Source of the DNA: a virus
Strand: one strand, 5' to 3'
IMG/VR virus record: IMGVR_UViG_3300031857_000517
Span: 1-38,815 of that record
DNA: 38,815 nt
Part shown: positions 14,978 through 38,594 of the stretch, piece by piece
Layout of the letters: every line of letters begins with the position of its first letter
Position numbering within the stretch: position 1 is the stretch's first letter
Notes under the pieces: generated by a model
Told to the model about the DNA's origin: nothing
What the model saw: only the letters and a program-made list of their open reading frames with translations
Database searches by the model: none
Position numbers and translations under genes: made by a program

Positions 14978-16069
14978 ATGTCTTTTGGAGCATACAACCC
15001 TGAAGATCAGGTCCTAAGTTCAGACGCGATAGTGTCACCAATGTGGAGCAACAATACTCTTCAATTAACCACTTTTTTTAGTTGGTCATTACAAGAGCAA
15101 AATACTCCTGCTGGTAAATTTTTCCTTAATGTTTATCAAGGAAATGTAGCTGCAACTCAATCACTTGAGTCTCAGTTCACTATTGCTTATGGTCACATTA
15201 GTGGATCAGGATCATCTTATTTTAATCCTTTAGTAGTTGATAAAACACCAACAAGAGATGTTTATGGTCAATTTAGATCATTAGTCTATGGAGATGAAAA
15301 TTCATCATTCCAATTTGGCGGTTCAACTTTCACATCAAAAGACATTATTGTACTATCTGTAAACAGATCAAGATTTAAAGAATCTATCAATCCAGGTTCT
15401 TTCTTCTTACGTATTACAAGTGGCAGTGGTGGTAGTGCTAGATCAATTGGTTTAGTAGATGATTCAAGTGTAACAACTACTTCAACTTATATTGGTACAT
15501 CTCGTGTTTATCAATTATTAAGTGGCTCTTATAACTCATCAACTCAAACAAACTTACCTTCATCTTCTAACTACACAGTTAGTGGATCTTATGGTATTAT
15601 GATTCCTGATGAAGGATTAATCATATTAAATCCAAGAGCTTTAGCTTTACCAGCTGGTGCTTTAGGTGGTGTAGGTGCTGTATTTAATGAATTTAGCTCA
15701 TCTCAAGCAGCTGCTTTCTTTAGTACAACAGCAACTTATAATATCAATAACAGAATGGTTTTTGATATGATTTCATCTAGTGTTGTATTAGCTCCTACTT
15801 TTAGTTTACAGAACTATGAAACAATCTCATCACGTTATTTCTTTACACGTGTTAAGAATGCTGAATTTAACTACACAACTAACCCAACTATAATTGATAC
15901 TAATGGTAATTTATTATATACTCAATTAGTGTATAATCCTCAAACATTTATCACAACAGTTGGTTTATATAACAATACAGGTGATTTATTAGCAGTAGCT
16001 AAATTAAATAAACCTCTAGTTAAAGACTTTACCAAGGAATTATTATTAAAAGTTAAATTAGACTTCTAA
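14978..16069 (+). CDS. Virion structural protein with [14 protein letters not shown]-terminal domain
   Basis: A 363-residue Ser/Thr/Phe/Tyr-rich beta protein. The last about 90 residues contain FFTRVKNAEFNYTTNPTI, then [18 protein letters not shown] and a closing LLLKVKLDF. The same C-terminal pattern recurs in structural proteins of many T4-like phages and is repeated, diverged, in the N-terminal half of the protein encoded at 18062. It has no stalk repeats, unlike the three genes after it. It is probably a baseplate or fibre-base protein onto which distal fibre proteins mount; that role is inferred. Confidence 0.7.
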   Translation: MSFGAYNPEDQVLSSDAIVSPMWSNNTLQLTTFFSWSLQEQNTPAGKFFLNVYQGNVAATQSLESQFTIAYGHISGSGSSYFNPLVVDKTPTRDVYGQFRSLVYGDENSSFQFGGSTFTSKDIIVLSVNRSRFKESINPGSFFLRITSGSGGSARSIGLVDDSSVTTTSTYIGTSRVYQLLSGSYNSSTQTNLPSSSNYTVSGSYGIMIPDEGLIILNPRALALPAGALGGVGAVFNEFSSSQAAAFFSTTATYNINNRMVFDMISSSVVLAPTFSLQNYETISSRYFFTRVKNAEFNYTTNPTIIDTNGNLLYTQLVYNPQTFITTVGLYNNTGDLLAVAKLNKPLVKDFTKELLLKVKLDF

Positions 16070-16079
16070 TGTTTCGCCC

Positions 16080-17345
16080 ATGTCAGCAGATGTTTACAAG
16101 AGATTTAGTGTATCTGATACTTTCGTAGTACCATATACAGCGAATAAAAGCTGGGATATTTCATCCGGCTCATTTGCTGATCATAGAATTGTAGTCAACT
16201 TAGGAGTTAATTATAGTGGATCTATATTTGATCCTAATAGTGAATACATAACTAATGGTCAGTATGATAGATTGGTTTACAATTCTATCAATATGATTTA
16301 TTATCCTAAGTTTTTACCATCAGCTTCATCTTTATATTTAATTGAAAGACAAAATACCACACTTAATGATGGTACTTTAACTACTCAGTCTTATAATAGA
16401 GGATTAGTTGATTTAGGTAATTTAGATACAGTTAAATTTTTCCCAACAGGAGCTAATGCTTCTATCTATGTTTTAAACATACCTAGATCTTTAACCAGTG
16501 AAAAAATATTACCTGGTACATTTGAAGTGTTTTTAAATAGTGCCTCTGTTGATTATAAATTTTATGATGACGGAAACTATAATTTATTTTATAGTGGAAG
16601 TCCTGTAGGTTCATCTATTGGAACTACTTTAGTAGCAGGTTCACAAGTAGGAAATATATTCTATGAACAGAATGTTGCTATAATTACTGTTGTACCTAAT
16701 AGTATGAGAGCTACAGCTTGGAGAGGAGCTAATCCTTTCTGTGTTCAAGCATCTCCATCTGTAACACCTAGTGTGACTACTTCAGTAAGTATTACACCTA
16801 GTATTAGTGTGACACCTAGTGTGACACCAAGTGTTAGTGTAAGTCCAAGTATACCAAGCACACCAAGTGTGACTCCATCAACAAGTGCAACACCAAGTGT
16901 AACACCTAGTGTAACACCAACAATTAGTGTAACACCTTCAATAAGTACAACTCCTTCAATAAGTGTAACACCAACAATTAGTGTAACCCCATCAACAACA
17001 CCTCCTACCTTATCAGGTAGTTTATATTTTGATGCTACAACTGGTGCAGGTGGTTATAGTGTCACAGCTATTGATGTGAATGGATCAACACCTACCTTAA
17101 CAAGTGGAACTAATGTTCCGTTTAGTACTGATGGACATGGTTTTGCTACTAACCAAACTGGTAATAATGAAACTTTGAATATCTCAATAGGTGGATTTAC
17201 ATTGAATGGATGTATTCAAGTAACAGACAGTGGTGCAAATTATTATCAACAAAATGTGACTGGAAATGGAACTATTTCATTTACTGGTCTTGTAATAAAT
17301 AATACTACAACAGTTCAGATTATTTTAGCAGATGGAGCTTGTTAA
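16080..17345 (+). CDS. Stalk-and-tip adhesin 1 (PSVTPS repeats, Cys terminus)
   Basis: A 421-residue three-part protein. Residues 1-220 are a globular virion-attachment domain beginning MSADVYKRFSVSDTF. Residues about 224-310 are a low-complexity stalk of PSVTPS/SISVTPS-type units, probably extended and possibly glycosylated. Residues about 311-421 form a Gly/Thr/Asn-rich beta-sandwich tip ending ADGAC. The tip is unrelated in sequence to those of the next two proteins, though all three end in Ala-Cys. The likely role is host surface binding; the receptor is unknown. The next gene follows after a TATTTATA motif. Confidence 0.75.
   Translation: MSADVYKRFSVSDTFVVPYTANKSWDISSGSFADHRIVVNLGVNYSGSIFDPNSEYITNGQYDRLVYNSINMIYYPKFLPSASSLYLIERQNTTLNDGTLTTQSYNRGLVDLGNLDTVKFFPTGANASIYVLNIPRSLTSEKILPGTFEVFLNSASVDYKFYDDGNYNLFYSGSPVGSSIGTTLVAGSQVGNIFYEQNVAIITVVPNSMRATAWRGANPFCVQASPSVTPSVTTSVSITPSISVTPSVTPSVSVSPSIPSTPSVTPSTSATPSVTPSVTPTISVTPSISTTPSISVTPTISVTPSTTPPTLSGSLYFDATTGAGGYSVTAIDVNGSTPTLTSGTNVPFSTDGHGFATNQTGNNETLNISIGGFTLNGCIQVTDSGANYYQQNVTGNGTISFTGLVINNTTTVQIILADGAC
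16759..17001 (+). repeat. Degenerate PSVTPS-coding repeat tract, gene 1
   Basis: Imperfect tandem units of about 12 to 24 bases built on AGTGTNACACC and encoding Pro-Ser-(Val/Ile)-Thr/Ser-Pro-Ser. Bases 16812-16877 match 17586-17651 of the next gene at 63 of 66 positions. Confidence 0.85.
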
Positions 17346-17348
17346 AAA

Positions 17349-17356
17349 TATTTATA
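17349..17356 (+). promoter_or_regulatory. TATTTATA motif, 4 bases from a start
   Basis: Exact TATTTATA between the first and second stalk-and-tip adhesin genes, four bases before the ATG at 17361. Confidence 0.45.
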
Positions 17357-17360
17357 AAAA

Positions 17361-18059
17361 ATGAGTAATACAGGATTTAAAGCATATACAGACCTAGAAC
17401 AATACTATTTAGATAATGGTGTTGCTACTGGTGTGACTAAAACTAATAGTATTAGTGATCCTGATTATATAGCTCCATTTTTAGATTTAGCTTTTTGTCC
17501 ATTACCATCAGCTAGCCCAAGTGTTACACCTACAATTAGTTTAACACCAAGTATTAGTATAAGTCCAAGTGTGACACCAACTGTTACACCTAGTGTGACA
17601 CCAAGTATTAGTGTAAGTCCAAGTATACCAAGTACACCAAGTGTAACTCCAAGTGTGACTCCATCTATTTCTATATCTGCTACACCTAGTGTAACACCAA
17701 CTGTAACACCAAGTATAACACCATCACCATCTGTTGGTTATGCTCCTAGAGTTATAGGAGCAAACGCAAGTACTCAACCTTGTACAGGAGGAAGTTGTGA
17801 TGATTATTTAGGATGGGATATAACATTACTTGAACCTGTATTAGTTGATACAAATTATATTTTATCTATTGAATTATATCAATACAACATATACCAATAC
17901 ACATATCAAGCTTATGGTACAATTTTAGCGGGTCAAAGTTATAATAATAGTGATCCTTGTGCTGGAGGTGGTGCTTATGTAGGATGTAATTATGATGTAA
18001 ATAGTGTTTGTGTTAATTATATTGATGCACCTGTAAATCCATCAACTTTTGCTTGTTAA
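17361..18059 (+). CDS. Stalk-and-tip adhesin 2 (PSVTPS repeats, Cys terminus)
   Basis: A 232-residue protein with a short N-terminal domain (residues 1-48, [20 protein letters not shown]). The stalk of PSVTPS-type units spans residues about 50-128. The Cys-rich tip (about 129-232) contains [21 protein letters not shown] and VNSVCVNY, and ends STFAC. Six cysteines in the tip suggest disulfides or metal binding, unusual for a protein made in the cytoplasm. It is the shortest of the three adhesins; its N-terminal domain may be a minimal attachment part. The next ATG lies two bases after its stop. Confidence 0.75.
17518..17731 (+). repeat. Degenerate PSVTPS-coding repeat tract, gene 2
   Basis: The same repeat family as in the flanking genes, encoding the stalk of the 232-residue adhesin. 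It includes the 66-base block shared with the upstream gene. Confidence 0.85.
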
Positions 18060-18061
18060 TT

Positions 18062-19036
18062 ATGAATAGTAGAACATTAAATACAGGAATCACAAGAATA
18101 AAATTTCAAAACAGTCATACTGTTTATGAGAATTTTATTAAGTGTACTATTAAGGATTATGAATTTAATTTAAGTTATAATCCGTCTCTATTATCAGGTT
18201 CTCAAGCTGCTTTATTCCCATATAGTTCTTCAGTTGGTGGAGATGTATTTTTCAATCCAACAGGCTCAGAATATTTTGGTATATTAAAACCATTCACTAC
18301 AGGTTCAGAATTTTCTCCATACACTAGTGAAATAGGATTATATAATGATGCTGGAGATTTATTAGCAGTAGCAAAATTAGCTTCACCAATGCCATTATCA
18401 TCTAACACTGATATGACATTTTTAGTTAAATATGACACCCAATGGATTAATAAACCATACTTTACTCCTTCAGTGACACCATCAATGACTCCGTCACCAT
18501 CATTTATACCTCCAACACCAACAGTTACACCTTCAGTTACACCTTCAATAAGTGTGACACCAAGTATTAGTGTGACACCTAGTGTAACACCTTCTGCTAC
18601 AACTAGTATAAGTGTGACACCAAGTATTAGTGTGACACCTAGTGTAACACCTTCAATTAGTGTAACTCCAAGCACAACACCAAGTATTAGTGTGACACCT
18701 AGTGTGACACCTTCAACAACACCTCCTAGTAGTGTTTCTTTAATAGTATATGCTAAATATATAAACAGTGGTGGTACTTTAAGATATAAAATTAATAGTG
18801 GAACTTTCAATGAAATTCCTCTTACTTTATCATCAACTTGTGATTACTTATATACAATAACTGGATTAATACCTGGTGATACAGTGACATTTGATGTTGT
18901 TAGTGCGTATGCTATAGCTGGTTCTTCAACATCACCTTGTCCATCATCTGGATTTGGATGTACTTACAACTATGGCGCTGTGAGTGGTGGAACTAATAAC
19001 GTATATATAACAGTAGATGGTTCTACTGCCTGTTAA
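18062..19036 (+). CDS. Stalk-and-tip adhesin 3 (PSVTPS repeats, Cys terminus)
   Basis: 324 residues from the ATG at 18062. An in-frame TTG at 18053 lies inside the previous gene and is less likely. The N-terminal domain (about 1-130) repeats the C-terminal domain of the protein encoded at 14978: [20 protein letters not shown] and then [17 protein letters not shown]. The stalk (about 137-225) has PSVTPS/SISVTPS units. The tip (about 226-324) contains [16 protein letters not shown] and [15 protein letters not shown], and ends GSTAC. It looks like a recombinant of the upstream fibre-base module with a stalk and a new tip. It closes the structural module. Confidence 0.75.
18471..18723 (+). repeat. 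PSVTPS-coding repeat tract, gene 3, with 60-base period
   Basis: Bases 18548-18594 and 18608-18654 are an exact 47-base direct repeat with 60-base spacing. The whole tract encodes the adhesin stalk and shares units with the two preceding genes. Confidence 0.88.
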
Positions 19037-22234: not shown

Positions 22235-22984
22235 ATGAAGATTAGAATTAAAGAAGCGCGACAAACGCCACAGGCAATATTCATGGCGGGCCCAGCAGGT
22301 GCTGGTAAGTCATTTATCGCCAAATCTTTACCACTATCTAAATTCCAAGTAATAAATGTTGACGATACTTATGAAGAATTGCTTAAGGCATCTGGTTTAG
22401 GCATGAAACAAAAGGATTTTGATCCTGAACAATTGTCACAAGCTGGTAAATTAATGGCTCAAGCCCAAAAATCAACTAAGGAAAAATACGCCAAAGCACT
22501 TGAAAATTTAAACGACATTATTATTGATGGAACAGGTGCGGCATCTAAACCATTACTCAAGAAAAAGGCAGAATTAGAGGCTTTAGGGTATGAAACAATG
22601 ATGGTAATGATATATGTTTCTCCAATAACATCACTTGAACGTAATGCTAATAGAGAACGCTCATTAATGCCAGGTATTGTTTTAAGAACATGGAGAGATA
22701 TTAATAGTAATATTGAAACATATGAGCAAGCATTTGGTGACAATTTAGTTGTCATAAATAATGATCCTAAAGACGCTGATAAAAGTTTTGACCCACAAGA
22801 AATAAAACGTAGATTTTTTGACACATCAAAAGCTAAAGGTAAACCAAAAACACCTGAAGAAATAGAAAAGGCAAAAGCTGATATTGCTCAATTAAATAAA
22901 GATATTGAGTTAGCAATTCAACAACAACCAAAATTCACACCCGCTGCTACAACGGTTGCTAAAATAAAGGCATTCATTAAATGA
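22235..22984 (+). CDS. P-loop kinase (zeta-toxin/PNK-like) with MKIRIKE leader
   Basis: A 249-residue protein. It begins MKIRIKE then Ala, a possible capsid-targeting leader with an IKE cleavage site; the kinase fold starts straight afterwards. Walker A is GPAGAGKS (residues 19-26) and VDDTYEELLK follows. IIDGTGAASK is a likely substrate or lid region, and ERNANRERSLMPG supplies the Arg-rich lid. This pattern fits zeta-toxin/AAA_33-type kinases that phosphorylate nucleic acid ends or small substrates. A helical Lys/Gln-rich C-terminal tail follows. It overlaps the next gene by ATGA. The substrate cannot be told from sequence. Confidence 0.78.
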   Translation: MKIRIKEARQTPQAIFMAGPAGAGKSFIAKSLPLSKFQVINVDDTYEELLKASGLGMKQKDFDPEQLSQAGKLMAQAQKSTKEKYAKALENLNDIIIDGTGAASKPLLKKKAELEALGYETMMVMIYVSPITSLERNANRERSLMPGIVLRTWRDINSNIETYEQAFGDNLVVINNDPKDADKSFDPQEIKRRFFDTSKAKGKPKTPEEIEKAKADIAQLNKDIELAIQQQPKFTPAATTVAKIKAFIK

Positions 22985-24780
22985 TAGATTTAAATACTAT
23001 ATTAAGCGAACTAAACGACGACCAAACTAACCCTTCAGCTGTTGCTTATTATCCAGGTGGATTCAAACCACCACATGAAGGACATTATGAGGCAGCTAAA
23101 GATTTAGCTTCACGTCCTAATATATCTAAAGTAATTATTTTAGTAGGACAAAAAGAACGTGATGGTATTACTTCTAAAATGAGTAAGCAAATATGGGATT
23201 TATATCTCGCTGCTGCTCCAATAGCTAAAGTATCAGTTGAAATGTCTAAAGATCCATCTCCAATTAAAGATATTTTTGGAATAATGGATAATAATTTAGA
23301 AATGAAGGCATATGTTGCTGGTGCTAAGGAAGAAGTTGAAGATCAAGGATATTTTTCTTCATTACAAAAAGCATTTGGTAATAGAGTAATGCCTATATCT
23401 ATTGAGGAAAAAATAGTTAGCCAAGGTAAACGTCTATCAGGTACTCAAGTTCGCCAATTAATAGATACTGTTAAAGCATCAGTTTTAAAATTAAGATCTA
23501 TTAAAGATAAAAATTCAAATGAATACTCAAAGGCTAGAAATGAGTATTTAAATAATATAAAAATACTTGAAGGTTGCTTCCCAGAAGCAGTTATTCAAAA
23601 AGGACAATTTGAAGCAATAATGAGAATACTAGGTATTCCTGTTTTAGATGCTGACCAATTACAAGAAAATCAAGAAGACGGAAACATAATTATAAGAGTA
23701 CCTTATAAATTAACACCTAAAATTGAGAACTATCTTAATACAATGTTAGTTCCATTTGAATACTCACAACAAGCATTTGGTGGACAAGAACGTCGTATGT
23801 TAATACCTAATTTAAGTGATGATCCATATCAACGTGAGAAAATACTTAATTGGTTATCTAAAAAAGGTATAGCTATTAACGTAGAAGAAGATCTATTCAC
23901 TATTAAATGGTGGAAATCAACATTAGAAGAAACATTAACTGAGCCTCAAGAAGCATCAGATAATGTTATAGCTGACTTTATTGATTTTGCTGCTAAAGCA
24001 CTTGACTTACAACAAGTACCTAAAATTACTTTTAGTGATGATCAAGAATTAGCTAAAAACATGCATTCATTAGGTGCTTATAATCCTAAAAGTGATGAAT
24101 TATTAGTTGTTAAAGGACCAAGACTAACAGCTGACATTTTACGTACATTAGCTCATGAATTAGTACATCGTAAACAAGATGAATTAAATCCATTAAGTAA
24201 AGAAGATGGGGCTACTGGTTCACCAATTGAAAATGAAGCTAATGCTGCTGCTGGTGTGTTATTAAGACAATTTGGTAAATACAGACCAGAAATATTTGAA
24301 GAAGACGCTAAAGAAAAAGCTGATTATAAGATATATTGTGATATGGATGGTGTTATTGTTGATTTTGATAAAGGATATAAAGAATTAACAGGTAGAGAAG
24401 CTAGCTTTGACACACCTAAAGAAGAATTTTGGGCTCCTATTCAAAAAGCAGGCGCCTCATTTTGGATTAAATTACAATGGATGCCTGATGGAAAAAAATT
24501 ATGGGAATTTATTAAACCATACAATCCAGATTTACTATCAGCTCCATCAAGAGACGAATCATCTAAGATAGGTAAGTTTGTATGGGTGAAAAGAAATGTT
24601 CCTGGTACTAAACTTATATTACGTCAAGCAGAACGTAAACAAGAATTCGCAACACCAAACTCTATCTTAATTGATGATAGAGCTGATAATATACAACGTT
24701 GGAAAGACGCTGGTGGTATTGGAATTGTCCATACATCAGCAGCCGACACAATACAACAATTGAAAGATTTAGGTTTATGA
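22981..24780 (+). CDS. Nucleotidyltransferase / zinc metallopeptidase / HAD phosphatase fusion
   Basis: A 599-residue multidomain protein. Residues 1-10 (MIDLNTILSE) are a leader-like segment. Residues about 20-165 form a cytidylyltransferase-like domain with YYPGGFKPPHEGH (His32, His35) and RLSGTQVRQLI. Residues about 200-310 are unrecognised. Residues about 325-435 form a zincin-like domain with HELVH (392-396) and a downstream ENEANAAAG possibly giving the third ligand. Residues about 448-599 form a HAD domain with DMDGVIVDF (454-462) and SILIDDRADN (561-570), like 5'(3')-deoxyribonucleotidases. LTE at 319-321, in the linker before the peptidase, matches a (L/I)XE processing site. No frameshift or stop separates the domains. 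Confidence 0.8.
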   Translation: MIDLNTILSELNDDQTNPSAVAYYPGGFKPPHEGHYEAAKDLASRPNISKVIILVGQKERDGITSKMSKQIWDLYLAAAPIAKVSVEMSKDPSPIKDIFGIMDNNLEMKAYVAGAKEEVEDQGYFSSLQKAFGNRVMPISIEEKIVSQGKRLSGTQVRQLIDTVKASVLKLRSIKDKNSNEYSKARNEYLNNIKILEGCFPEAVIQKGQFEAIMRILGIPVLDADQLQENQEDGNIIIRVPYKLTPKIENYLNTMLVPFEYSQQAFGGQERRMLIPNLSDDPYQREKILNWLSKKGIAINVEEDLFTIKWWKSTLEETLTEPQEASDNVIADFIDFAAKALDLQQVPKITFSDDQELAKNMHSLGAYNPKSDELLVVKGPRLTADILRTLAHELVHRKQDELNPLSKEDGATGSPIENEANAAAGVLLRQFGKYRPEIFEEDAKEKADYKIYCDMDGVIVDFDKGYKELTGREASFDTPKEEFWAPIQKAGASFWIKLQWMPDGKKLWEFIKPYNPDLLSAPSRDESSKIGKFVWVKRNVPGTKLILRQAERKQEFATPNSILIDDRADNIQRWKDAGGIGIVHTSAADTIQQLKDLGL

Positions 24781-25695: not shown

Positions 25696-26271
25696 ATGCC
25701 CTATACTCGTAAAGGTAATTGCGTATACAAAGAAACTGGCAAGAAAATGGGCTGCTCTAAAGACGCAGCCGCTGCTGAAAAATACATGAAGGCGTTATAC
25801 GCCGCTGAATCCGGAAATCTTAAAGAAGGATTTGAACCAGAAACAATTGATCCAAACCAACCAGAATTAGCAGTGACTATTGAGTTACCTAACCCAACAC
25901 AAGCTATGGCTTCTTTTGTCTCAACTTTTTTTGCTTCTCGCACACAATCTCATATATTCCATTTACAAGTTAAAGGACCAGGTGCTTTTGCTGCTCATAC
26001 AGCATTACAAGCATATTATGAAGGTATCATTCCATTAATTGATGGTTTAGTTGAATCATTTCAAGGTCGCTATGGTATCATTACTGGTTATAAGTGTGAA
26101 GGACAGTGGATTGAAAATCCAACTGATGCTATAAAATATTTTGAAGCTTTATGTATGTACATTGAGAAAAACCGTCAAATGTTACCTCAAGATTCATACA
26201 TTCAAAACCAAATTGATACATTTGTTGAATTAGTTGAATCAACTAAATACAAATTAGTAAACTTACAATAA
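25696..26271 (+). CDS. Ferritin/Dps-like four-helix protein (DUF5856-like) with Cys N-domain
   Basis: A 191-residue protein in two parts. Residues 1-40 form a small basic module (GNCVYKETGKKMGCSKDAAA, then MKALYAAE) that I recall recurring at the start of phage proteins. LKE-Gly at 42-45 then matches the proposed processing site. Residues about 66-185 look ferritin-like: SRTQSHIFHLQVKGPGAFAA (His86, His89), His101, YYEGIIPLIDGLVESFQG (Glu109, Asp116, Glu120). Helices with spaced His/Glu/Asp are expected for a di-iron or Dps-like bundle. DUF5856 is my recollection of the family name. DNA protection or iron binding in the virion is speculative. It is coupled to the next gene (TAATG). Confidence 0.72.
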   Translation: MPYTRKGNCVYKETGKKMGCSKDAAAAEKYMKALYAAESGNLKEGFEPETIDPNQPELAVTIELPNPTQAMASFVSTFFASRTQSHIFHLQVKGPGAFAAHTALQAYYEGIIPLIDGLVESFQGRYGIITGYKCEGQWIENPTDAIKYFEALCMYIEKNRQMLPQDSYIQNQIDTFVELVESTKYKLVNLQ

Positions 26272-26648
26272 TGAAAATTCGCATAGTTAAAGAGGAAGAG
26301 GATTTTACACCAATTGAAGATCCTAAAGAACCAAAACCTGCTGCTAAACAATTTCAAATATTAGCATCAATGATCACTAACACTAAAGTTAATGACCAAA
26401 CAAATATACTATCAGCTATGCGTGCATTACCAGGCGTTACTATTGTAAATTCACAAGCAGCTGTTCCAGGTTCTAACTCAGAAGGACAATTACGTTACAA
26501 AACAAATGTTGATATTAAAATTGACACTTCAGCTATTGAAGGTGATGTAAAAGAAGGTATTAAGAAAATTGTTGAAGATATCAAGAATATTGAAGGTGTT
26601 GTTGAATTTAAATTATTACCAAAAGCAAAAGAAACAACTCCATACTAA
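26271..26648 (+). CDS. Small alpha/beta (ACT/ferredoxin-like) protein with MKIRIVKE leader
   Basis: A 125-residue protein. The leader MKIRIVKE is followed by an acidic/Pro linker to residue about 25. The body alternates helix and strand: ILSAMRALPGVTIVNSQ, then RYKTNVDIKID and IKKIVEDIKNIEGVVEFKLL, a beta-alpha-beta-beta-alpha-beta pattern like ACT or ferredoxin-like folds. The fold is predicted by eye. It has TAATG overlaps on both sides. No ligand or role is evident. Confidence 0.72.
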   Translation: MKIRIVKEEEDFTPIEDPKEPKPAAKQFQILASMITNTKVNDQTNILSAMRALPGVTIVNSQAAVPGSNSEGQLRYKTNVDIKIDTSAIEGDVKEGIKKIVEDIKNIEGVVEFKLLPKAKETTPY

Positions 26649-27304
26649 TGAATAAGGTGCAATTAAAAGAACATATTGAGAGAATCATTAGTTATGTGGG
26701 CCAAGAATATAACCATGGCCCTAAACTTATAATGAATGAAAGTAAAAATCCAATTTTTATTTCTGAAGGTTTATTTTACCACATTGAGAATAATCTTCCA
26801 ATTAACGAATCTATATACCGTCCTCAATCCATGATGTTTTTAAAACTATTTGTTGAGGCGAGAAATTTATATGAATCTAAGCGCTTACAATTATGTGAAG
26901 CAGACCAATACTATTTTGATAATACTGATATTGGAACATTTGGTGAGTATAATGGTATTAAAGTACCACTAGACTTACCCCTGACCGAGGAATTCTTGAT
27001 TGAAACATTAGAAGAAGCAGATAAGAAAAAGAAAACACCCCCAATTGGAAAACCAAAACGTGGTGGTTCTAAAAAATTCTATGTATATGTTAGAGATAAA
27101 GGCAAAGTAAAAAAAGTATCATTTGGTATGGCAGGTGGTGGCTTAAGAGCCAAACTAAACAATCCAAAAGCTAGACAAGCATTTTCTAATCGTCATAATT
27201 GCCCTCAGAAAAAAGATAGAACTAAAGCTTCATATTGGAGCTGTCGTTTACCTCGTTATGCAAAACTATTAGGATTTAAAACAACATTTAGCGGATACTG
27301 GTAA
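26648..27304 (+). CDS. Protein with C-terminal RHNC...YWSCR domain
   Basis: A 218-residue protein. It starts MNKVQLKE, and a second site, ISE-Gly, lies near residue 40. The middle is acidic and helical and ends in a Lys-rich linker. Residues about 143-210 are a basic domain: KFYVYVRDKGKVKKVSFG, then ARQAFSNRHNCPQKKDRTKA and YWSCRLPRYAKLLG. This His/Cys/Trp signature recurs in T4-like marine phages as I recall; its function is unknown, but the basic character suits nucleic-acid contact. It is coupled to both neighbours by TAATG. Confidence 0.75.
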   Translation: MNKVQLKEHIERIISYVGQEYNHGPKLIMNESKNPIFISEGLFYHIENNLPINESIYRPQSMMFLKLFVEARNLYESKRLQLCEADQYYFDNTDIGTFGEYNGIKVPLDLPLTEEFLIETLEEADKKKKTPPIGKPKRGGSKKFYVYVRDKGKVKKVSFGMAGGGLRAKLNNPKARQAFSNRHNCPQKKDRTKASYWSCRLPRYAKLLGFKTTFSGYW

Positions 27305-27531
27305 TGATTAGTCTAATAAAAATATTAAAAGAAGGTAAAATTGAATATCCTGCTGACCATCAGCCAGGTATGCGTGTGACTAAAGGTGGTTCAATGTGTG
27401 CTAATTGTGAATATTGGATCGCTGATGGTAATAAATGTAATAACAAATATTGGCTTCAATGGAATAATAATGATGAACAAGTCCCATACCCAGCAGATGA
27501 ATACTGTTGTAATTGGTGGCATGAAAAATAA
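27304..27531 (+). CDS. Small five-Cys protein, HiPIP-like or zinc-binding, with LKE leader
   Basis: A 75-residue protein. The leader MISLIKILKE ends in LKE followed by Gly. The remainder has Cys32-x2-Cys35 (MCANCEYW), Cys45 and Cys68-Cys69 (YCCNWWHEK). The spacing and the aromatic C-terminus resemble high-potential iron-sulfur proteins, but a zinc site is equally possible. If processed after Glu10, the mature protein would be a 65-residue metal-binding domain. It starts inside the preceding stop (TAATG). Confidence 0.72.
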   Translation: MISLIKILKEGKIEYPADHQPGMRVTKGGSMCANCEYWIADGNKCNNKYWLQWNNNDEQVPYPADEYCCNWWHEK

Positions 27532-27536
27532 ATAAT

Positions 27537-27800
27537 ATGAGTCAACCTTATGTAGACTTAGTTGTGACAGATGAATATGTGATTAGGGAATTTGATGAAA
27601 ACATTGATCCTATAGAATTAATGTGGCATCGAGATGATGAAAATAGGCTGGTAGAAGCTATAGAACCAACAGATTGGTTAGTACAGCTTGATAACCAGCT
27701 ACCAATGTCTATGGATAAACCAATATTTATCCCCAGACATGCGTGGCATAGAACAATAAAAGGAACAGGAAAATTAAAGATTAAAATATATAAATCATGA
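27537..27800 (+). CDS. Small cupin-like protein
   Basis: An 87-residue beta-rich protein. It shows DENIDPIELMWHRDDENR, later DWLVQLDNQLPMSMDKP and FIPRHAWHRTIKGTGKLKI. The two His-containing strands and IPRHAWHR fit the second half of a cupin barrel, which often binds a metal. It lacks the MK...(L/I)XE leader seen on its neighbours. It overlaps the next gene by ATGA. The function is unknown. Confidence 0.7.
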   Translation: MSQPYVDLVVTDEYVIREFDENIDPIELMWHRDDENRLVEAIEPTDWLVQLDNQLPMSMDKPIFIPRHAWHRTIKGTGKLKIKIYKS

Positions 27801-28234
27801 AAAAATCTGAATTAAAACAATTAATCAGAGAAGCAATTGAAGAAGTAAAACCTAAAGTTGAAGAAGCTAAGGAAGACTTCGCTCCAGAAATTGATGAAAT
27901 TGGTTCATTCTGGGTAGTTGAAAAACCATCTACTAGTGCTACTTTAGATGATATCTGCTTTGAGTGCGAAAATATCGCTTACTTAATCAACCAAGTTCGT
28001 GGTGGTTTAAGTGAAAAAGATATTAAAGGTGTATTCTTTAAAGAAGCTAAAGCTAAAAAATTAGCTGAAAAATTGTTAGCTGATCGTGATAAGAAAAAAG
28101 ACGAAGTGAAACAAGCAGCTGAAGCTTACAAGAAAATGAAAGAAGAAACTTTAGCTAAAGTACAAGAGTACATGAAAAACAAAAAAGCTACTAAAGATGT
28201 AGTTGATGAGTTAAAAGACTTAACTGATAAATAA
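27797..28234 (+). CDS. Helical protein with MKKSELKQLIRE leader
   Basis: A 145-residue acidic/Lys-rich helical protein. The leader MKKSELKQLIRE ends in IRE followed by Ala, a textbook (L/I)XE-Ala site. An acidic linker leads to a short globular patch (FWVVEKPSTSATLDDICFEC, residues about 38-57), then a long coiled coil (residues about 85-140). Two Cys lie at 54 and 57. The leader is closely similar to that of the next gene. I do not recognise the body; an internal head or DNA-condensing role would fit its composition. Confidence 0.75.
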   Translation: MKKSELKQLIREAIEEVKPKVEEAKEDFAPEIDEIGSFWVVEKPSTSATLDDICFECENIAYLINQVRGGLSEKDIKGVFFKEAKAKKLAEKLLADRDKKKDEVKQAAEAYKKMKEETLAKVQEYMKNKKATKDVVDELKDLTDK

Positions 28235-28554
28235 TGAAACGCTCTGAATTAAAAAATATTATTAAAGAGTTAGTTGAAGCATCATATGTAGATTCATCCT
28301 CAACTGAGATAGGTAAAACCAAAATTGACCCCCAGACTGGAGTTAAGTCAACATTAAAAAGTATTGATCCTGAGACAGGTAAATTTTCTTGGGATGTTGA
28401 ATATGATGTTGACCCTAAATTCTTATATGATAAATTAGATCAATTAGTTGATTATTTAAGAAAAGCTCCTAAAGACTCTGAATTAGCTCAGTATAGAGAT
28501 ATACTTAAGAATTTAAAGAACAGAACTGCTAGAGTAATAAATCAAAGTAAATAA
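28234..28554 (+). CDS. Small protein with MKRSELKNIIKE leader
   Basis: A 106-residue protein. The leader MKRSELKNIIKE is followed by LVE-Ala, giving two overlapping (L/I)XE sites; the second is the better match. The body has a DPQTG/DPETG repeat (IDPQTGVKSTLKSIDPETGK) and a helical C-terminus (LYDKLDQLVDYLRKAP). It has TAATG overlaps at both ends. The family is not recognised. Confidence 0.72.
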   Translation: MKRSELKNIIKELVEASYVDSSSTEIGKTKIDPQTGVKSTLKSIDPETGKFSWDVEYDVDPKFLYDKLDQLVDYLRKAPKDSELAQYRDILKNLKNRTARVINQSK

Positions 28555-29096
28555 TGAAGATTAGAATTAAAGAAGATGAAGTATCAAGTGCTGTGTCACA
28601 AATAAAGACTCAAATGAGTGCTTTTATGGGTGGTATGGAAGATGCTATTGAAGATAAAAGCAAAAGTCAAAAAGAAAGTGCTACTCTTACAACAGCTAGT
28701 GTTCTGTTAGCATTACCTGCTATATTAGGTTTAATAGCTCGTTTAGGTAAATCAGTTAGTTCAATTATTAAAAGAACTATTGGTACTGCTTCTCAAAATC
28801 AATCAGATTCTGAAAAATACTTCCAACAAATGGGTCGTATAGCTGATGAATTACATCATCTGTATATTAAACCAATTGAATTAATAGTTAAACGTTTTGT
28901 TAAAGACGAAAATAAAGCTAAAAAAGTGGCTGCTGGAATATTCCATGTTATTGTTGCTGTTATGATGATAGCATCAGGAGTAACAGCTGTTAAAGCGTTA
29001 CAAGCAAAAGAAATTTCATTAGCTTCATTAGAAACAGCATTATCAGCTGTTAAAGGTGGTGAAGTAAAACAATATATAACTAAATTATTAGCGTAA
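28554..29096 (+). CDS. Membrane protein with MKIRIKE leader
   Basis: A 180-residue protein. MKIRIKE is encoded by the same 21 bases as in the kinase gene at 22235. Two strongly hydrophobic segments follow: about residues 46-64 (TASVLLALPAILGLIARLG) and 123-147 (VAAGIFHVIVAVMMIASGVT), separated by a helical charged loop with YFQQMGRIADELHHLYIKP. There is no signal peptidase motif. A membrane protein bearing the same leader as soluble neighbours would be unusual cargo; alternatives are a holin-like or exclusion protein. It is coupled on both sides by TAATG. Confidence 0.74.
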   Translation: MKIRIKEDEVSSAVSQIKTQMSAFMGGMEDAIEDKSKSQKESATLTTASVLLALPAILGLIARLGKSVSSIIKRTIGTASQNQSDSEKYFQQMGRIADELHHLYIKPIELIVKRFVKDENKAKKVAAGIFHVIVAVMMIASGVTAVKALQAKEISLASLETALSAVKGGEVKQYITKLLA

Positions 29097-29464
29097 TGAT
29101 TCGTTTAACAGATATATTAATTGAATCGCTTCTTGAACAGAAAAAAGATCGTTGCCATCGCATAGCTGATAGACGCTATGATAAACCATCTGCTTATAAA
29201 TCAGGTGCTATTGTTAGATGTCGTCAAGGTAAAATTTGGAAAGATCTTAAAGAAGATGAATCATTACATAAATGGTTTAAACGTTCTGGCCCTAAAGGTA
29301 AAGAAACTGGTTGGGTAGATTGTAATGCTCCTGACGGAAAAGGCGGATATAAAGCCTGTGGACGAAAAGAAGGTGAAAAAAGATCAAAATATCCTGCTTG
29401 TAGACCAACACCTGCTGGATGTAAGAAAAAAGGTAAAGGTAAAACTTGGGGAAAAACAAAATAA
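29096..29464 (+). CDS. Cys-rich basic protein (DUF5872-like) with [10 protein letters not shown] leader
   Basis: A 122-residue, very basic protein. The leader [10 protein letters not shown] ends in LIE followed by Ser. Two Cys modules follow: residues 17-48 ([20 protein letters not shown], then [11 protein letters not shown]), and residues about 56-109 ([41 protein letters not shown]). The second module matches what I remember as DUF5872; both recur in phage proteins without known function. The Lys/Arg-rich tail suggests nucleic-acid binding. The next gene starts eight bases after its stop. Confidence 0.75.
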
Positions 29465-30016: not shown

Positions 30017-31897
30017 ATGAAAAAAATTAAAATTATAAGATCTCGTCCTCTTAAAGAAGTAGATGATGAAGTAGTTGATCAGGCTTTAACAAATAATAAA
30101 CCTGAAGAACTTACTTATGAGTCTAATCCTTTAGAGTTTATTTTACAAAAATATCCTTCATTAACAGAGACTTTAGTTGAGTTATTGACTGAAGACTTTA
30201 GAGATTATCTTAATGGTATCTATATAATGGCTCCTAAGCCAACAGTATTTAAGGTTGTTTTACATAATAATCAATATTTCTATCTAACATGGATGGGTAA
30301 AACTTATGAAGCTAAAGTAAGTGGTAAAAAATACTGGTTATCAAGTATAGGTGAATTAGAAAGAGCAACTATTGAAATAGCTAACCTATTAATGTTAGGA
30401 GCAGCTCCTTCAACTCAAGGACCTGAAGCAGAAATGACTTCTGCTCCAGAAGAAACACCTGAAGAGACACCTGAAGAAACACCTGAGGAAACACCAGAAG
30501 AAGAAGCACCTGAAGAAATACAAGAATCAAAAAAAAAGTTTCTATTAAATTTACTAGAAAACATAGTTACTGAGTTAACTATATCTCCTGATTACCAAAC
30601 AAAAAAAGGACCTAATCCTTATTATACTATCACACCTGAAGCTGAGTCTAATGTTAAAAAAGCTTTAAAAGGTAAAGCAGATACTAGTAATTTACTTTTC
30701 AAAAATGTAGAAAAACCAGGTACTCTAATTTACCAAGAAAAAGGAAATAATTATTTCCAAATAATGAATTTAATTGATGGTAAAGCTAAAGCTACAAAAT
30801 ACTATATAGCCTTATCTAAATCATCAGTGACAGGACATTATGGAGAATCAAGTAAAGGATCTGGTGGTGGTGCTGAACAAACAGCAGTTCAAGAATCTGC
30901 TCAATGTTTAGTTAATGCTATTCGTTATAATAAAGGAAAAGATATAACACCTAAAGATTTAACAGCGACTAATATTAAATCTGCTTCAAAACGTACAAAT
31001 ACATCTTCATCACTTGAAGAAATGGTAACATTCCTTAAAGATAATCCAGATTGGCAAGTAACAGCTTCTAGCACAGCTAATGCTTTAGCTAAACAATATC
31101 CTAGCAACTTTACCTTTTATAGACAATCAGGTATTGTTCCTAGAATAGAAGCTGCGGCTAAAATAGCACTTAAAAATGCTGGAGTAGATGCAAACATAAA
31201 TAAATGGAATCCAGCTGATATGTGGATGGCTACTGATGAAGTTAAGGATATTGAATTTCCTACTAATTTAGAACAATTAAATGCGTTGATAGCTAAACTA
31301 TTTAACGCTAAAAAATTAATTGGAGTATCATTAAAAAAATGTAGCGCTTGTAAAGTTGAAGTTTATAATAATCCAAAAGTAGCAAAATCAACTACTAAAT
31401 TTGATAAAATAGAACCTATAGACAAAAATATATTTGCTACTAAAGATATCTATTTAAGTTTTGAAGGTGGTAAAGTACAATTTAGAAATTTCAATGACAT
31501 AACTAGCTGGCAAGGAGAAATTAAAGGTAAAGAAGCATCAGGTGGTAAAATAGGACAAGGAATTGTTAGTTCCATCTTAAAAAGTTTAGGACAACCTGGT
31601 TTATCTAACCAAAAAGAAATATTAACATCTTGTCAAAAACCAGACGCTGGTTTTATAAGTAATTTTTATAAATTATATAACAATACTAAATCATTATCTA
31701 AAGTAAGTACTGAAGAATTTACTAATAACTTTAAAAAAGCACCATTAGGTAATAGAACAAGTAATTATTTTAATGTTGAATTTTTAAACCAATTTGGTAA
31801 ATTAAGTAGTGACAATAAAGATAAATTTATAAGTGAATTAGTTGGATATGCTAAATCAAGTTCTAGCTTCTCATCTATATTCGCTAAAGTATCATAA
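30017..31897 (+). CDS. Two-part protein: N-domain, PEET linker, PD-(D/E)XK-like C-domain
   Basis: A 626-residue protein. The leader is MKKIKIIRSRPLKE (LKE at 12-14). Residues about 73-128 form a small domain (TVFKVVLHNNQYFYLTWMGK). Residues 145-170 are acidic PEET repeats ending IQE-Ser, another (L/I)XE-type site. Residues about 190-626 form a large domain with AVQESAQCLVNAIRY (Glu293), KWNPADMW (Asp401) and LIGVSLKK (Lys440). The E...D...xxK order suggests a restriction-endonuclease-like fold, with Ser replacing the usual Glu; this is a weak assignment. It could be packaged as a precursor with two products. It ends a transcription unit. Confidence 0.7.
   Translation: MKKIKIIRSRPLKEVDDEVVDQALTNNKPEELTYESNPLEFILQKYPSLTETLVELLTEDFRDYLNGIYIMAPKPTVFKVVLHNNQYFYLTWMGKTYEAKVSGKKYWLSSIGELERATIEIANLLMLGAAPSTQGPEAEMTSAPEETPEETPEETPEETPEEEAPEEIQESKKKFLLNLLENIVTELTISPDYQTKKGPNPYYTITPEAESNVKKALKGKADTSNLLFKNVEKPGTLIYQEKGNNYFQIMNLIDGKAKATKYYIALSKSSVTGHYGESSKGSGGGAEQTAVQESAQCLVNAIRYNKGKDITPKDLTATNIKSASKRTNTSSSLEEMVTFLKDNPDWQVTASSTANALAKQYPSNFTFYRQSGIVPRIEAAAKIALKNAGVDANINKWNPADMWMATDEVKDIEFPTNLEQLNALIAKLFNAKKLIGVSLKKCSACKVEVYNNPKVAKSTTKFDKIEPIDKNIFATKDIYLSFEGGKVQFRNFNDITSWQGEIKGKEASGGKIGQGIVSSILKSLGQPGLSNQKEILTSCQKPDAGFISNFYKLYNNTKSLSKVSTEEFTNNFKKAPLGNRTSNYFNVEFLNQFGKLSSDNKDKFISELVGYAKSSSSFSSIFAKVS
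30448..30510 (+). repeat. PEET-coding tandem repeat
   Basis: Four imperfect 12-base units of the form GAAACACCTGAA, encoding Pro-Glu-Glu-Thr, then degenerate acidic codons. Unit number could vary by slippage. Confidence 0.8.
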
Positions 31898-35019: not shown

Positions 35020-35985
35020 ATGGCAGATTTCGACTACAAAAAATTTTTAACTGAGTCAAAACTTAAAATTAAAGTTCCTGTAAAGGAAATGGCTCGTATT
35101 GCTAAAGAAAAATACAAACTAAATTCTGATTTTCCAGGCATTAGTGATAGAATTAAAGATCCTTCAAGTTTTAAGCTAGATAGAAAACAACAAGTTGTTA
35201 ATTATTTTGTAGCTCAAGCGAAAGAACAAGGTATTAAACCAATGGAAGTTGAATTACTTAAGAGTGACATTGAAAAAAATGCTGCTCCAGGTGTTAACTG
35301 GTCTTTCACTCCTGATATTAGAAATCAGTTGTTAACTACAACAACACCTAAACAAGCTGCTGCTCCTGAAGATGAAGAAGGCGCGTTTTTTGGAGGTGCT
35401 GATGATGCTGAAGATTTATTTATAGGTAAAAGTAAGCTTAAAACTAAAAAAGCTCCTACAGCTACTGATGATACAGATGATGAACCATCTGAAAAAGAAT
35501 TTACTAAAATTAAAGCTCCTAAAGTTACAGGTTCAAATATGAGAGCTGGTGAGTGGTTTGTTGATAATGATGATTTAATCTCTAAAATTATTAAACAATA
35601 CGCTACATCAACTATGAAAACAGGTCGTGTAGTTAAGGAAGTTGAAGATGGTGGTATGTCAAGTAGTGATTTTAAATCAGCTCAATTAAAATCTAAAGAA
35701 ACTGCTAAAGCAGCTTTACCAAGTTTAGTTCAACAGCTTGTAGATAAAATAGAAGAACTAAAAGAAGAAGATTATAATGCTTATGTTAAAGTATTAAATG
35801 ATCTAGACAAATATAAATTTGGTGTTACTAATACTAAAGGTGTTTTAAAACAAATTCTAAAAGCATTAGGTGAAGACTCAATTCCAGCTATCGGATCTAA
35901 GAGAAAAAGTAGTGAAGAAGATGAACTTAAAAAATTAGGAATTGATGATGAACCAATTGAATTAGATGGAGAAGAAGAAATTTAA
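35020..35985 (+). CDS. Putative internal head protein with T4-CTS-like leader
   Basis: A 321-residue acidic/Lys-rich protein. Its leader, MADFDYKKFLTE then Ser, is the closest in the window to the T4 capsid-targeting sequence (MKTYQEFIAE then Ala). The body is low complexity: a helical N-terminal third, an acidic Ala/Glu/Asp/Thr region (about residues 108-165), a helical segment (LPSLVQQLVDKIEELKEED) and an acidic C-terminus. This composition fits internal or scaffold-type proteins. It is followed after four bases by the two-TM coiled-coil gene. No enzymatic motif is seen. Confidence 0.72.
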   Translation: MADFDYKKFLTESKLKIKVPVKEMARIAKEKYKLNSDFPGISDRIKDPSSFKLDRKQQVVNYFVAQAKEQGIKPMEVELLKSDIEKNAAPGVNWSFTPDIRNQLLTTTTPKQAAAPEDEEGAFFGGADDAEDLFIGKSKLKTKKAPTATDDTDDEPSEKEFTKIKAPKVTGSNMRAGEWFVDNDDLISKIIKQYATSTMKTGRVVKEVEDGGMSSSDFKSAQLKSKETAKAALPSLVQQLVDKIEELKEEDYNAYVKVLNDLDKYKFGVTNTKGVLKQILKALGEDSIPAIGSKRKSSEEDELKKLGIDDEPIELDGEEEI

Positions 35986-37004: not shown

Positions 37005-38594
37005 ATGAGTGATCAACAGAATATTAAAGAGATAATTAAACAGGAGTATATTAAATGCGCAACTGATCCTGTTTATTTTATGAGAAAATATTATTGGATT
37101 CAACACCCACAACGCGGCAGAATTCAATTTAATCTATATCCATTTCAGGAAGGTGTATTACATCAATTTAAAAAGAATAAATATAGTATTGTAAATAAGT
37201 CAAGACAGTTAGGTATATCTACTCTATCTTCAGCTTATTCACTTTGGTTAATGTTATTTAATAAAGATAAAAACGTACTTTGTATCGCTACTAAGCAGGA
37301 AACTGCTAAAAACATGGTTACTAAAGTAAAATTTGCTTATGATAACTTACCAAGTTGGTTACAACTAAAAGCTATAGAAAACAATAAATTAAGTCTAAAA
37401 TTAAGTAACGGGTCTCAAATTAAAGCAATTGGAGCGACAGGCGACGCAGGTAGATCTGAAGCCGTGTCATTACTGTTACTAGATGAGGCGGCGTTTATTG
37501 AAGGTATTGATGAGATTTTCGCTTCTGCTCAACAAACCTTGGCTACAGGAGGTCAATGTATTGCTATTTCAACTCCATTTGGTACAGGTAACTGGTTCCA
37601 TAGAACATTTATTGGAGGTGAAGAAGGTAAAAATGGATTTGTATCTATCAAATTACCTTGGACTGTACACCCTGAACGATCTCAAAAATGGAGAGATGAA
37701 CAAGATGCTATTTTAGGAGTTAGAAACGCCGCTCAAGAATGTGATTGTGACTTTACTACTTCAGGTGATACAGTAGTTGAACCTGATATTTTAAACTGGT
37801 ATATTCAAACATATCAAGCTGATCCTATAGCTAAAGGTGGATTTGATGGTAATTTATGGCGTTGGGAATATCCTGACTATACAAAACAATATATGGTTAT
37901 AGCTGACGTAGCTAGAGGTGATGGTAAAGACTATTCCGCATGCCATGTAATTGATATAAATGAAGCTAAACAAGTAGAAGAATATAAAGGACAAATTGGT
38001 ACTCGTGACTATGGTCATTTATTAGTATCAATAGCTACTGAATGGAATAATGCTTTGTTAGTAATTGAAAACGCTAATATTGGTTGGGATACAATACAAA
38101 CAGTACTAGATAGAGGATACCAAAATGTATATTACTCATCTAAATCAGATACTGCTAACATCACAATGGATAATTTTTTAAACAGAAATGATAATAACTT
38201 AGTACCTGGTTTCACTAACTCTACTAAAACAAGACCACTTGTTGTTTCAAAATTAGAAGCATATATGCGTGACAGAGCTTGTGTTATTCAATCTCGTCGA
38301 CTATTAGAAGAATTAAGAACATTTGTTTGGAAACATGGTAAAGCTCAAGCTAATGATGGGTATAATGATGATCTTATAATGGCCTTTGGTATTGGTATGT
38401 TTCTACGTGACACTGCTTTAAAATTCTCTCAAACAGGTATGGATTTAACTCGTGCTTCGCTTGGAGGTATAGGAAGAATTTCGTATAATACCGGAGCAAG
38501 TAGCTTTTACTCACCGCATAATCCAACCCCTGATAATCCTTGGAAAATGGATGATGGCAGAGGCGGTATGGAAGACATCAGCTGGTTAATATAA
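37005..38594 (+). CDS. 17: Terminase large subunit, gp17-like
   Basis: A 529-residue packaging motor and nuclease. The ATPase half shows an unusual T4-type Walker A, SRQLGIST (residues 66-73), Walker B LLLLDEAAFIE (156-166) and a coupling-motif region AISTPFGTGNWF. The nuclease half starts at MVIADVARGDGKDYSA (Asp301, Asp310), with VIENANIGW and the C-terminal acidic YNDDLIMAF. The length fits the family (T4 gp17 is 610 residues). It is expected to dock on the portal encoded next and fill the prohead. No small terminase gene is found upstream of it in this window. Confidence 0.95.
   Translation: MSDQQNIKEIIKQEYIKCATDPVYFMRKYYWIQHPQRGRIQFNLYPFQEGVLHQFKKNKYSIVNKSRQLGISTLSSAYSLWLMLFNKDKNVLCIATKQETAKNMVTKVKFAYDNLPSWLQLKAIENNKLSLKLSNGSQIKAIGATGDAGRSEAVSLLLLDEAAFIEGIDEIFASAQQTLATGGQCIAISTPFGTGNWFHRTFIGGEEGKNGFVSIKLPWTVHPERSQKWRDEQDAILGVRNAAQECDCDFTTSGDTVVEPDILNWYIQTYQADPIAKGGFDGNLWRWEYPDYTKQYMVIADVARGDGKDYSACHVIDINEAKQVEEYKGQIGTRDYGHLLVSIATEWNNALLVIENANIGWDTIQTVLDRGYQNVYYSSKSDTANITMDNFLNRNDNNLVPGFTNSTKTRPLVVSKLEAYMRDRACVIQSRRLLEELRTFVWKHGKAQANDGYNDDLIMAFGIGMFLRDTALKFSQTGMDLTRASLGGIGRISYNTGASSFYSPHNPTPDNPWKMDDGRGGMEDISWLI

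Follow-up and report, generated by a model that had tools for sequence, protein, structure and literature searches.

A putative leader-targeted head protein with two hydrophobic helices in a relative of the T4-like Flavobacterium phage immuto

The protein encoded at positions 28554 to 29096 of the window (the whole stretch of DNA that was analysed, 38,815 bases, which is also the complete virus record) is best read, with moderate confidence, as an accessory protein that is targeted to the prohead, clipped, ejected and then active at the host membrane. The sequences hold a leader shared with unrelated genes, an exchange of leaders with a joint near a protease motif, conserved hydrophobic helices and, in relatives, an S77 protease and a gp23 capsid; from these we infer packaging, cleavage, ejection, membrane insertion and function. 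The phage would be T4-like and the protein one of the cargo proteins inside its head, for which the leader MKIRIKE acts as a capsid-targeting sequence that brings it into the prohead core. An S77-type prohead protease would clip after E7, so that a helical protein of 173 residues stays in the head until it leaves together with the DNA. The two hydrophobic helices would then associate with the host inner membrane or become inserted in it, where an accessory, host-facing job early in infection is the most likely role. As a first guess, the job may be to exclude later phages or to block a membrane-linked defence, a suggestion that is possible but to be doubted.

The gene, its surroundings and its relatives

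The gene is an open reading frame of 180 codons on the plus strand, the ATG of which overlaps the stop codon of the preceding gene by one base. Its translation, a protein of 180 aa with MKIRIKE as first residues, agrees with what an earlier note on this DNA had read there. The record is kin to the T4-like Flavobacterium phage immuto, the host of which is Flavobacterium sp. LMO8; the terminase of the window shares 60% identity with that of immuto. The window ends 64 codons into a presumed portal gene, the start of which resembles immuto gp074, annotated as gp20-like; those 64 codons had no match in PHROGs. The features referred to below are as follows.

22235..22984, plus strand: unrelated gene with the identical MKIRIKE leader and a Zeta_toxin/AAA_33-type kinase body (Pfam PF06414, E 3e-11)
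22981..24780, plus strand: probable cargo gene, leader MIDLNTILSE, C-terminal 5'-nucleotidase-like part (phrog_2643, E 1.8e-26)
26271..26648, plus strand: third gene, with the leader variant MKIRIVKE (motif listing)
27304..27531, plus strand: small gene, leader MISLIKILKE (motif listing)
27797..28234, plus strand: gene with leader MKKSELKQLIRE (leader pattern sort, motif listing)
28234..28554, plus strand: gene immediately upstream of 28554, leader MKRSELKNIIKE (leader pattern sort, motif listing)
28554..29096, plus strand: coding sequence of a leader and a predicted all-helical body with two hydrophobic helices (ORF, homologues, AlphaFold2)
28554..28574, plus strand: leader MKIRIKE, with I-K-E as predicted prohead-protease site, cut after E7 (22 nt shared with 22235; L/I-X-E motif)
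28680..28736, plus strand: hydrophobic segment 1, residues 43-61 (mean over 19 residues, KD19, 2.02; overlaps predicted helix 47-75)
28926..28982, plus strand: hydrophobic segment 2, residues 125-143 (KD19 mean 2.29; overlaps predicted helix 119-140)
29096..29464, plus strand: gene immediately downstream of the 28554 gene, with a leader of its own and a 5872-like body (below cut-off)
30017..31897, plus strand: gene with leader MKKIKIIRSRPLKE (motif listing)
35020..35985, plus strand: gene with leader MADFDYKKFLTE (leader pattern sort, motif listing)
37005..38594, plus strand: terminase large subunit, given for context (phrog_2, E 1.7e-45)

The kinase-like gene at 22235 and the gene at 22981 stand as two probable cargo genes side by side (window 22235-24780); the product of the latter has 599 aa, and its N-terminus matches a cytidylyltransferase weakly, below the cut-off. 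A gene of an 87-aa family with 65 members lies at 27537-27800, does not have a classed leader, and is found directly upstream of a homologue of the 28554 gene in 31 of the 83 places that have an upstream neighbour.

A query with the single protein retrieved 4 viral loci, an alignment query 56, and a query with gp095, the immuto homologue, 41 more, giving 97 loci on viral contigs (56 + 41), including immuto's own record (L062); a further homologue is present in Microcystis phage Mel-JY01. The leader of gp095 is read as ending with the E of LIKE. Profiles of the window branch and the immuto branch matched one another with an hhalign probability of 98.1 (E 1.1e-13), placing them in one body family. 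A profile built from the window branch only (A5) found the immuto homologue (E 1.3e-11), two of its kin and Mel-JY01 (E 2.2e-18), whereas single-sequence matches of the family were weak for immuto (E 0.6) and reached 3e-8 for Mel-JY01. A limited scan of cellular genomes with one degenerate pattern returned 39 stretches and no confirmed relative, and a viral scan with the Mel-JY01 protein returned 12 stretches, of which 0 were confirmed relatives.

Homologue statistics refer to 87 proteins (that of the window and those of 86 of the 97 loci), 70 of them distinct, with a median length of 201 aa (n=70). Eleven loci were excluded because the homologue was truncated or fused or its start was unclear (L043, L050, L052, L053, L058, L059, L077, L098, L100, L101 and L102), and L060 was retained despite its cut 3' end. 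Among those excluded, L053 (6016-7780) has the homologue fused in frame to its frequent downstream neighbour, the FAD-oxidoreductase gene, and this fusion is either natural or made in assembly; L100 (9476-10513) and L077 (9773-10528) have some 60-150 additional residues separating leader from body. Gene neighbours of the homologues differ from locus to locus.

Searches of Pfam and PHROGs with the 55 hand-chosen members of the family alignment (A4) gave scattered weak matches, none of them to an internal head protein and none providing a convincing family name; it is the leader, and not the body, that defines the class of T4-type cargo with a capsid-targeting sequence. The window protein's best Pfam match, Phage_TAC_15, was rejected at 18.4 bits against a cut-off of 22, with 1 of 55 members matching. 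The best Pfam family among member matches, IGPS (5 of 55, E 0.0008, scattered), and the best PHROG among them, a tape-measure family (2 of 55, E 0.0006), were both judged to be chance.

Shared leaders, exchanged leaders and the protease motif

The genes at 22235 and 28554, which are 6.3 kb apart, have identical first 22 nt when aligned start codon to start codon. There are 42 repeated 22-mers in the window, and this leader is the sole one outside the tail genes at 14978-19036; when the last 19.8 kb of the window were simulated 200 times with a Markov model, no such repeat arose. The tail genes, which are rich in VTPS-type repeats, hold the other 41 of the 42.

Five rough leader classes occur on the one body family, and each class is found also on unrelated genes. 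The classes were obtained by a regular-expression sort of the family's 99 ORFs, which left 25 of the 99 unclassed ('none'), misses true leaders and catches false ones (a FAD oxidoreductase was called KIRIKE). Since the classes are rough, the argument rests on position controls at the protein and DNA levels. Comparison of 74 distinct family N-termini with 967 ORFs of 224 other families (71,558 pairs) revealed 409 pairs scoring at least 50, where three position controls gave 0, 0 and 6; at a score of at least 40 there were 738 pairs touching 47 other families, the controls yielding 24, 8 and 15 pairs that touched 9, 1 and 5 families. When leaders were compared as DNA within the same contig, 13 of 1,313 pairs scored at least 22 and neither of two controls gave any; some of the contigs are near-copies of one another. 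In the 17 same-contig matches listed, the alignment starts in both genes at the start codon or close to it.

Leaders are also replaced. In the locus pair L034/L046 the upstream gene and the body match as DNA while the leader between them differs, L084/L095 behave likewise, and L036/L040 have the right-hand join only; in these pairs the DNA match picks up again at, or next to, the E of an LxE. The wider exchange set comprises 186 pairs with body DNA identity of at least 80% and different leader classes, which involve 35 sequences and are not independent. Fifty-four of them are also at least 85% identical over the 40 nt upstream, and since both upstream sequence and body are conserved, only the leader has been replaced there. 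Just over half (51%) of the 372 breakpoints fall between two codons before the E codon of an [LI]xE and the end of that codon, against 18% at random, and a further 92 of the 372 lie about four codons before the E, where perhaps the chance similarity of lysine-rich codons is responsible. Of 206 pairs of the same class, 109 match right up to the start codon. Almost all of the exchange set (176 of 186) sets FDLxxFL against QxAG leaders, which look alike at their ends, and the other 10 pairs include an unclassed leader. Exchange at the DNA level is thus seen only between FDLxxFL and QxAG leaders, and not for the KIRIKE class of the window; for the other classes it is seen only as differing leaders on bodies that are at least 60% identical in protein.

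According to the available text of PMC9026906, T4 gp21 cuts after L/I-X-E, the propeptide of Alt consists of seven residues, and capsid-targeting leaders have already been proposed to let phages load various proteins; that short propeptides direct the T4 internal proteins into the prohead core is stated there and in the available part of PMC9958956. An [LI]xE ending at residues 5-35 is present in 70 of 70 distinct homologues of the 28554 protein, compared with a mean of 39.7 and a maximum of 51 in shuffles. An early motif of this kind occurs in 15 of 29 genes of the window's cargo region, with 8.9 expected by shuffling (P 0.012), and in 2 of 18 genes of the tail region against 3.6 expected. 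The S77 prohead protease and the gp23 capsid family were each found in 9 of 9 records tested that hold a homologue; the window stops short of the head genes, within the presumed portal gene, and the protease is seen only in relatives. N-termini of the protease and of the major capsid protein (MCP) were each read from 6 of the 9 loci, those that yielded an ORF when forward strands were extracted. All six proteases themselves contain an early [LI]xE, whereas in five of the six MCPs (L112-L116, L119) the conserved site resembling a propeptide end is VxE, hinting that the cut lies elsewhere or that the protease of this group may be slightly broader and accept V.

With T4 as precedent, leaders that are shared and exchanged, the L/I-X-E motif, and the S77 protease and gp23 of relatives together argue for packaging, which on this sequence evidence appears well supported. 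The 'cargo-type leader' of the earlier note is borne out to the extent that the leader is common to unrelated genes, belongs to a set that is replaced as cassettes in relatives, and ends at the motif of the T4 prohead protease.

Hydrophobic helices and the site of action

Kyte-Doolittle scale values and the membrane threshold of 1.6 were applied to 19-residue windows. The two hydrophobic segments placed by the earlier note at residues 46-64 and 123-147 were recovered with slightly offset peaks, at 43-61 and 125-143, and the third-best window of the protein scores just 0.81, far below these two. Among the 70 distinct homologues the best window reaches 1.6 in all 70, the second also in 52, and the third in none. 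In the immuto branch segment 2 reaches only marginal values (1.34-1.67 in the four members shown), and the helices could therefore lie inside a soluble bundle.

The AlphaFold2 model of the protein comprises six helices (mean pLDDT 84.4, pTM 0.81); a second model, made for the immuto branch from 18 sequences, reached a pLDDT of 69.1 only and was left out of the fold search. Searching the first model against the PDB gave no match at E ≤0.001. A likeness to TetR-type regulators, the top VIA-align result, was set aside, its Z of 8.1 being within the stated noise for helical bundles. The best fold match in BFVD, A0A6J5LZX9 (E 0.019, probability 1.00, TM 0.62), is probably a homologue.

Head proteins that enter membranes have precedents, in T7 gp14 and gp16, which do so after ejection (PMC8954989, available part), and, as its authors infer, in SPN3US gp47. 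Given these and the conserved segments, membrane action following ejection is favoured as the likelier course for the 28554 protein, and insertion of its helices into the membrane is likely.

The main alternative is that the protein is targeted and clipped but belongs to the scaffold side of the head core, where its helices would form the core of a soluble bundle serving head assembly or DNA packing, with no membrane step. The single confident six-helix model (pTM 0.81) and the weak hydrophobicity of segment 2 in the immuto branch are consistent with this; the Mel-JY01 homologue directly follows the MCP gene, and T4 IPIII also influences head assembly, as far as the available text of PMC9026906 goes. 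Against it, 52 of 70 homologues have two segments of transmembrane strength, neighbours vary with no head gene identified among the common ones, and the family is missing from the terminase-related records described next, most of which are fragments. On balance a head-core role is rather unlikely.

A profile search found the 28554 family in 0 of 14 records with a related terminase, chosen from at least 80 terminase loci as having 11 kb or more of sequence upstream of the terminase; since most of these records are fragments (one is near full size at 166 kb, one is of 102 kb and the others are of 17-64 kb), the absence is suggestive only. The same profile was positive in 9 of 9 records known to hold the family, a control that is partly circular because most of them supplied sequences to the searching alignment, Mel-JY01 not being among these. 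From these sequences the family looks accessory and not core, and its absence from the 14 records together with its variable neighbours suits cargo that faces the host better than it suits an entry channel for DNA required by all relatives. Of the earlier note's proposal of an injected membrane protein, the cargo leader and the two hydrophobic helices, which are conserved, are supported; a universal DNA-entry channel is argued against.

A pore that is ejected before the DNA and oligomerises in the envelope as a channel, in the manner of T7 gp14, is improbable, even though the 28554 protein resembles gp14 in size and in being helical. In the available part of PMC8954989, T7 gp14 has 196 aa, P-SSP7 gp14 has 200 aa and two predicted transmembrane helices, and gp14-like proteins range over about 180-240 aa with two to five transmembrane helices, a range that includes 180 aa and two hydrophobic segments. 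The same text gives at least 431 aa for gp15-like proteins, against 106 and 122 aa for the products of the genes adjacent to 28554, and describes Myoviridae tails as piercing the envelope and delivering the genome directly. A sequence search of the PDB returned matches at E ≥0.16 throughout and no solved ejection protein at E ≤1, which is weak evidence against a pore; the accessory appearance of the family (0 of 14 records) also counts against it.

Leaders that are truly shared but carry another address, such as a membrane or a DNA-bound assembly site, and that remain unclipped would agree with the mostly VxE site of the MCP in relatives. This is very improbable in view of exchange joints near [LI]xE, the motif in 70 of 70 homologues and the S77 protease in 9 of 9 records; moreover, a kinase-like gene carries this leader too, so it is not a tag for membranes. 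The protein is also unlikely to be a holin: an ordinary holin or lysis accessory with an N-terminus that is leader-like by chance would account for two hydrophobic helices, for a GH19 endolysin two genes upstream of the homologue in L003 and for a BFVD holin at rank 20 of the fold search (E 1.6, probability 0.18), but is barely credible against the sharing of leaders and exchange of cassettes, the lack of any holin family among Pfam and PHROG matches of the window protein and 55 members, the median length of 201 aa in 70 homologues, the distance of about 21 kb to the window's endolysin, and the different small hydrophobic ORF (1746-2003) that adjoins the endolysin in L003. In the stretch 1746-2602 of L003, this ORF of 85 aa beside the GH19 endolysin is a better-placed holin candidate than the 28554 protein, though it matches no holin family either.

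Meaning and comparison with known systems

Literature on ejection proteins, on the internal proteins of T4-like phages and on capsid targeting, covered as titles and abstract openings and thinly for subscription journals, contained nothing on leader exchange or on the 28554 protein. Among the entries listed for immuto and Mel-JY01 there was no proteomics. As far as the former literature goes, the number of leader classes, their exchange at a joint close to the protease motif, and a putative cargo family of membrane type with two helices would be new. Tentatively, though as a serious possibility, a large group of aquatic T4-like phages may possess an open delivery system, in which recombination has placed about five interchangeable capsid-address cassettes on many cargo genes, joined at the protease-cut codon or close to it, such that the mature cargo is nearly unchanged whatever its address, and in which one cargo inserts into membranes and alters the host envelope before phage gene expression. 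What is known from T4 is short, related propeptides marking a few internal proteins; here there are several classes on many unrelated genes. If packaging is confirmed, the leader would be a readable label: raw sequence would be enough to list the injected protein sets of many environmental phages, and leaders could serve as natural tags when proteins are to be loaded into phage heads. If the cargo acts on membranes, it would also suggest how a myovirus can alter the host envelope before its genes are read.

T4 Imm and Sp are small superinfection-exclusion membrane proteins that act early against later phages; they are made after infection and are not known to be packaged. They have the same type of job as is proposed for the 28554 protein, the likeness being one of description only. 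T7 gp14 and its family resemble it in being helical and of about 200 aa, gp14 being virion-internal and membrane-acting in the model given in the available part of PMC8954989. Unlike gp14, the 28554 protein has no sequence match to solved structures, and its adjacent genes are not gp15- or gp16-like in size. T7-type cores are not known to have this leader. Closer in outline is gp47 of the giant phage SPN3US, a head protein that loses its propeptide to a protease and is predicted to have a transmembrane helix, for which the authors infer an ejection protein and speculate about contact with the host membrane; it differs in its 111-residue propeptide, in being essential and in its giant-phage lineage, and is compared by description only (PMC5694885, available part).

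The nearest likeness is to T4 IPI-IPIII and Alt, which, in the available parts of PMC9026906 and PMC9958956, have a short N-terminal propeptide ending in L/I-X-E and a common address on otherwise unrelated proteins that vary between phages. A T4-type protease and capsid are likewise present, here in relatives. Unlike the T4 internal proteins, the 28554 protein has a body without a convincing family match and two hydrophobic helices, and in place of the one conserved leader that the accessible literature describes for T4, its relatives have about five classes, at least two of which have been exchanged.
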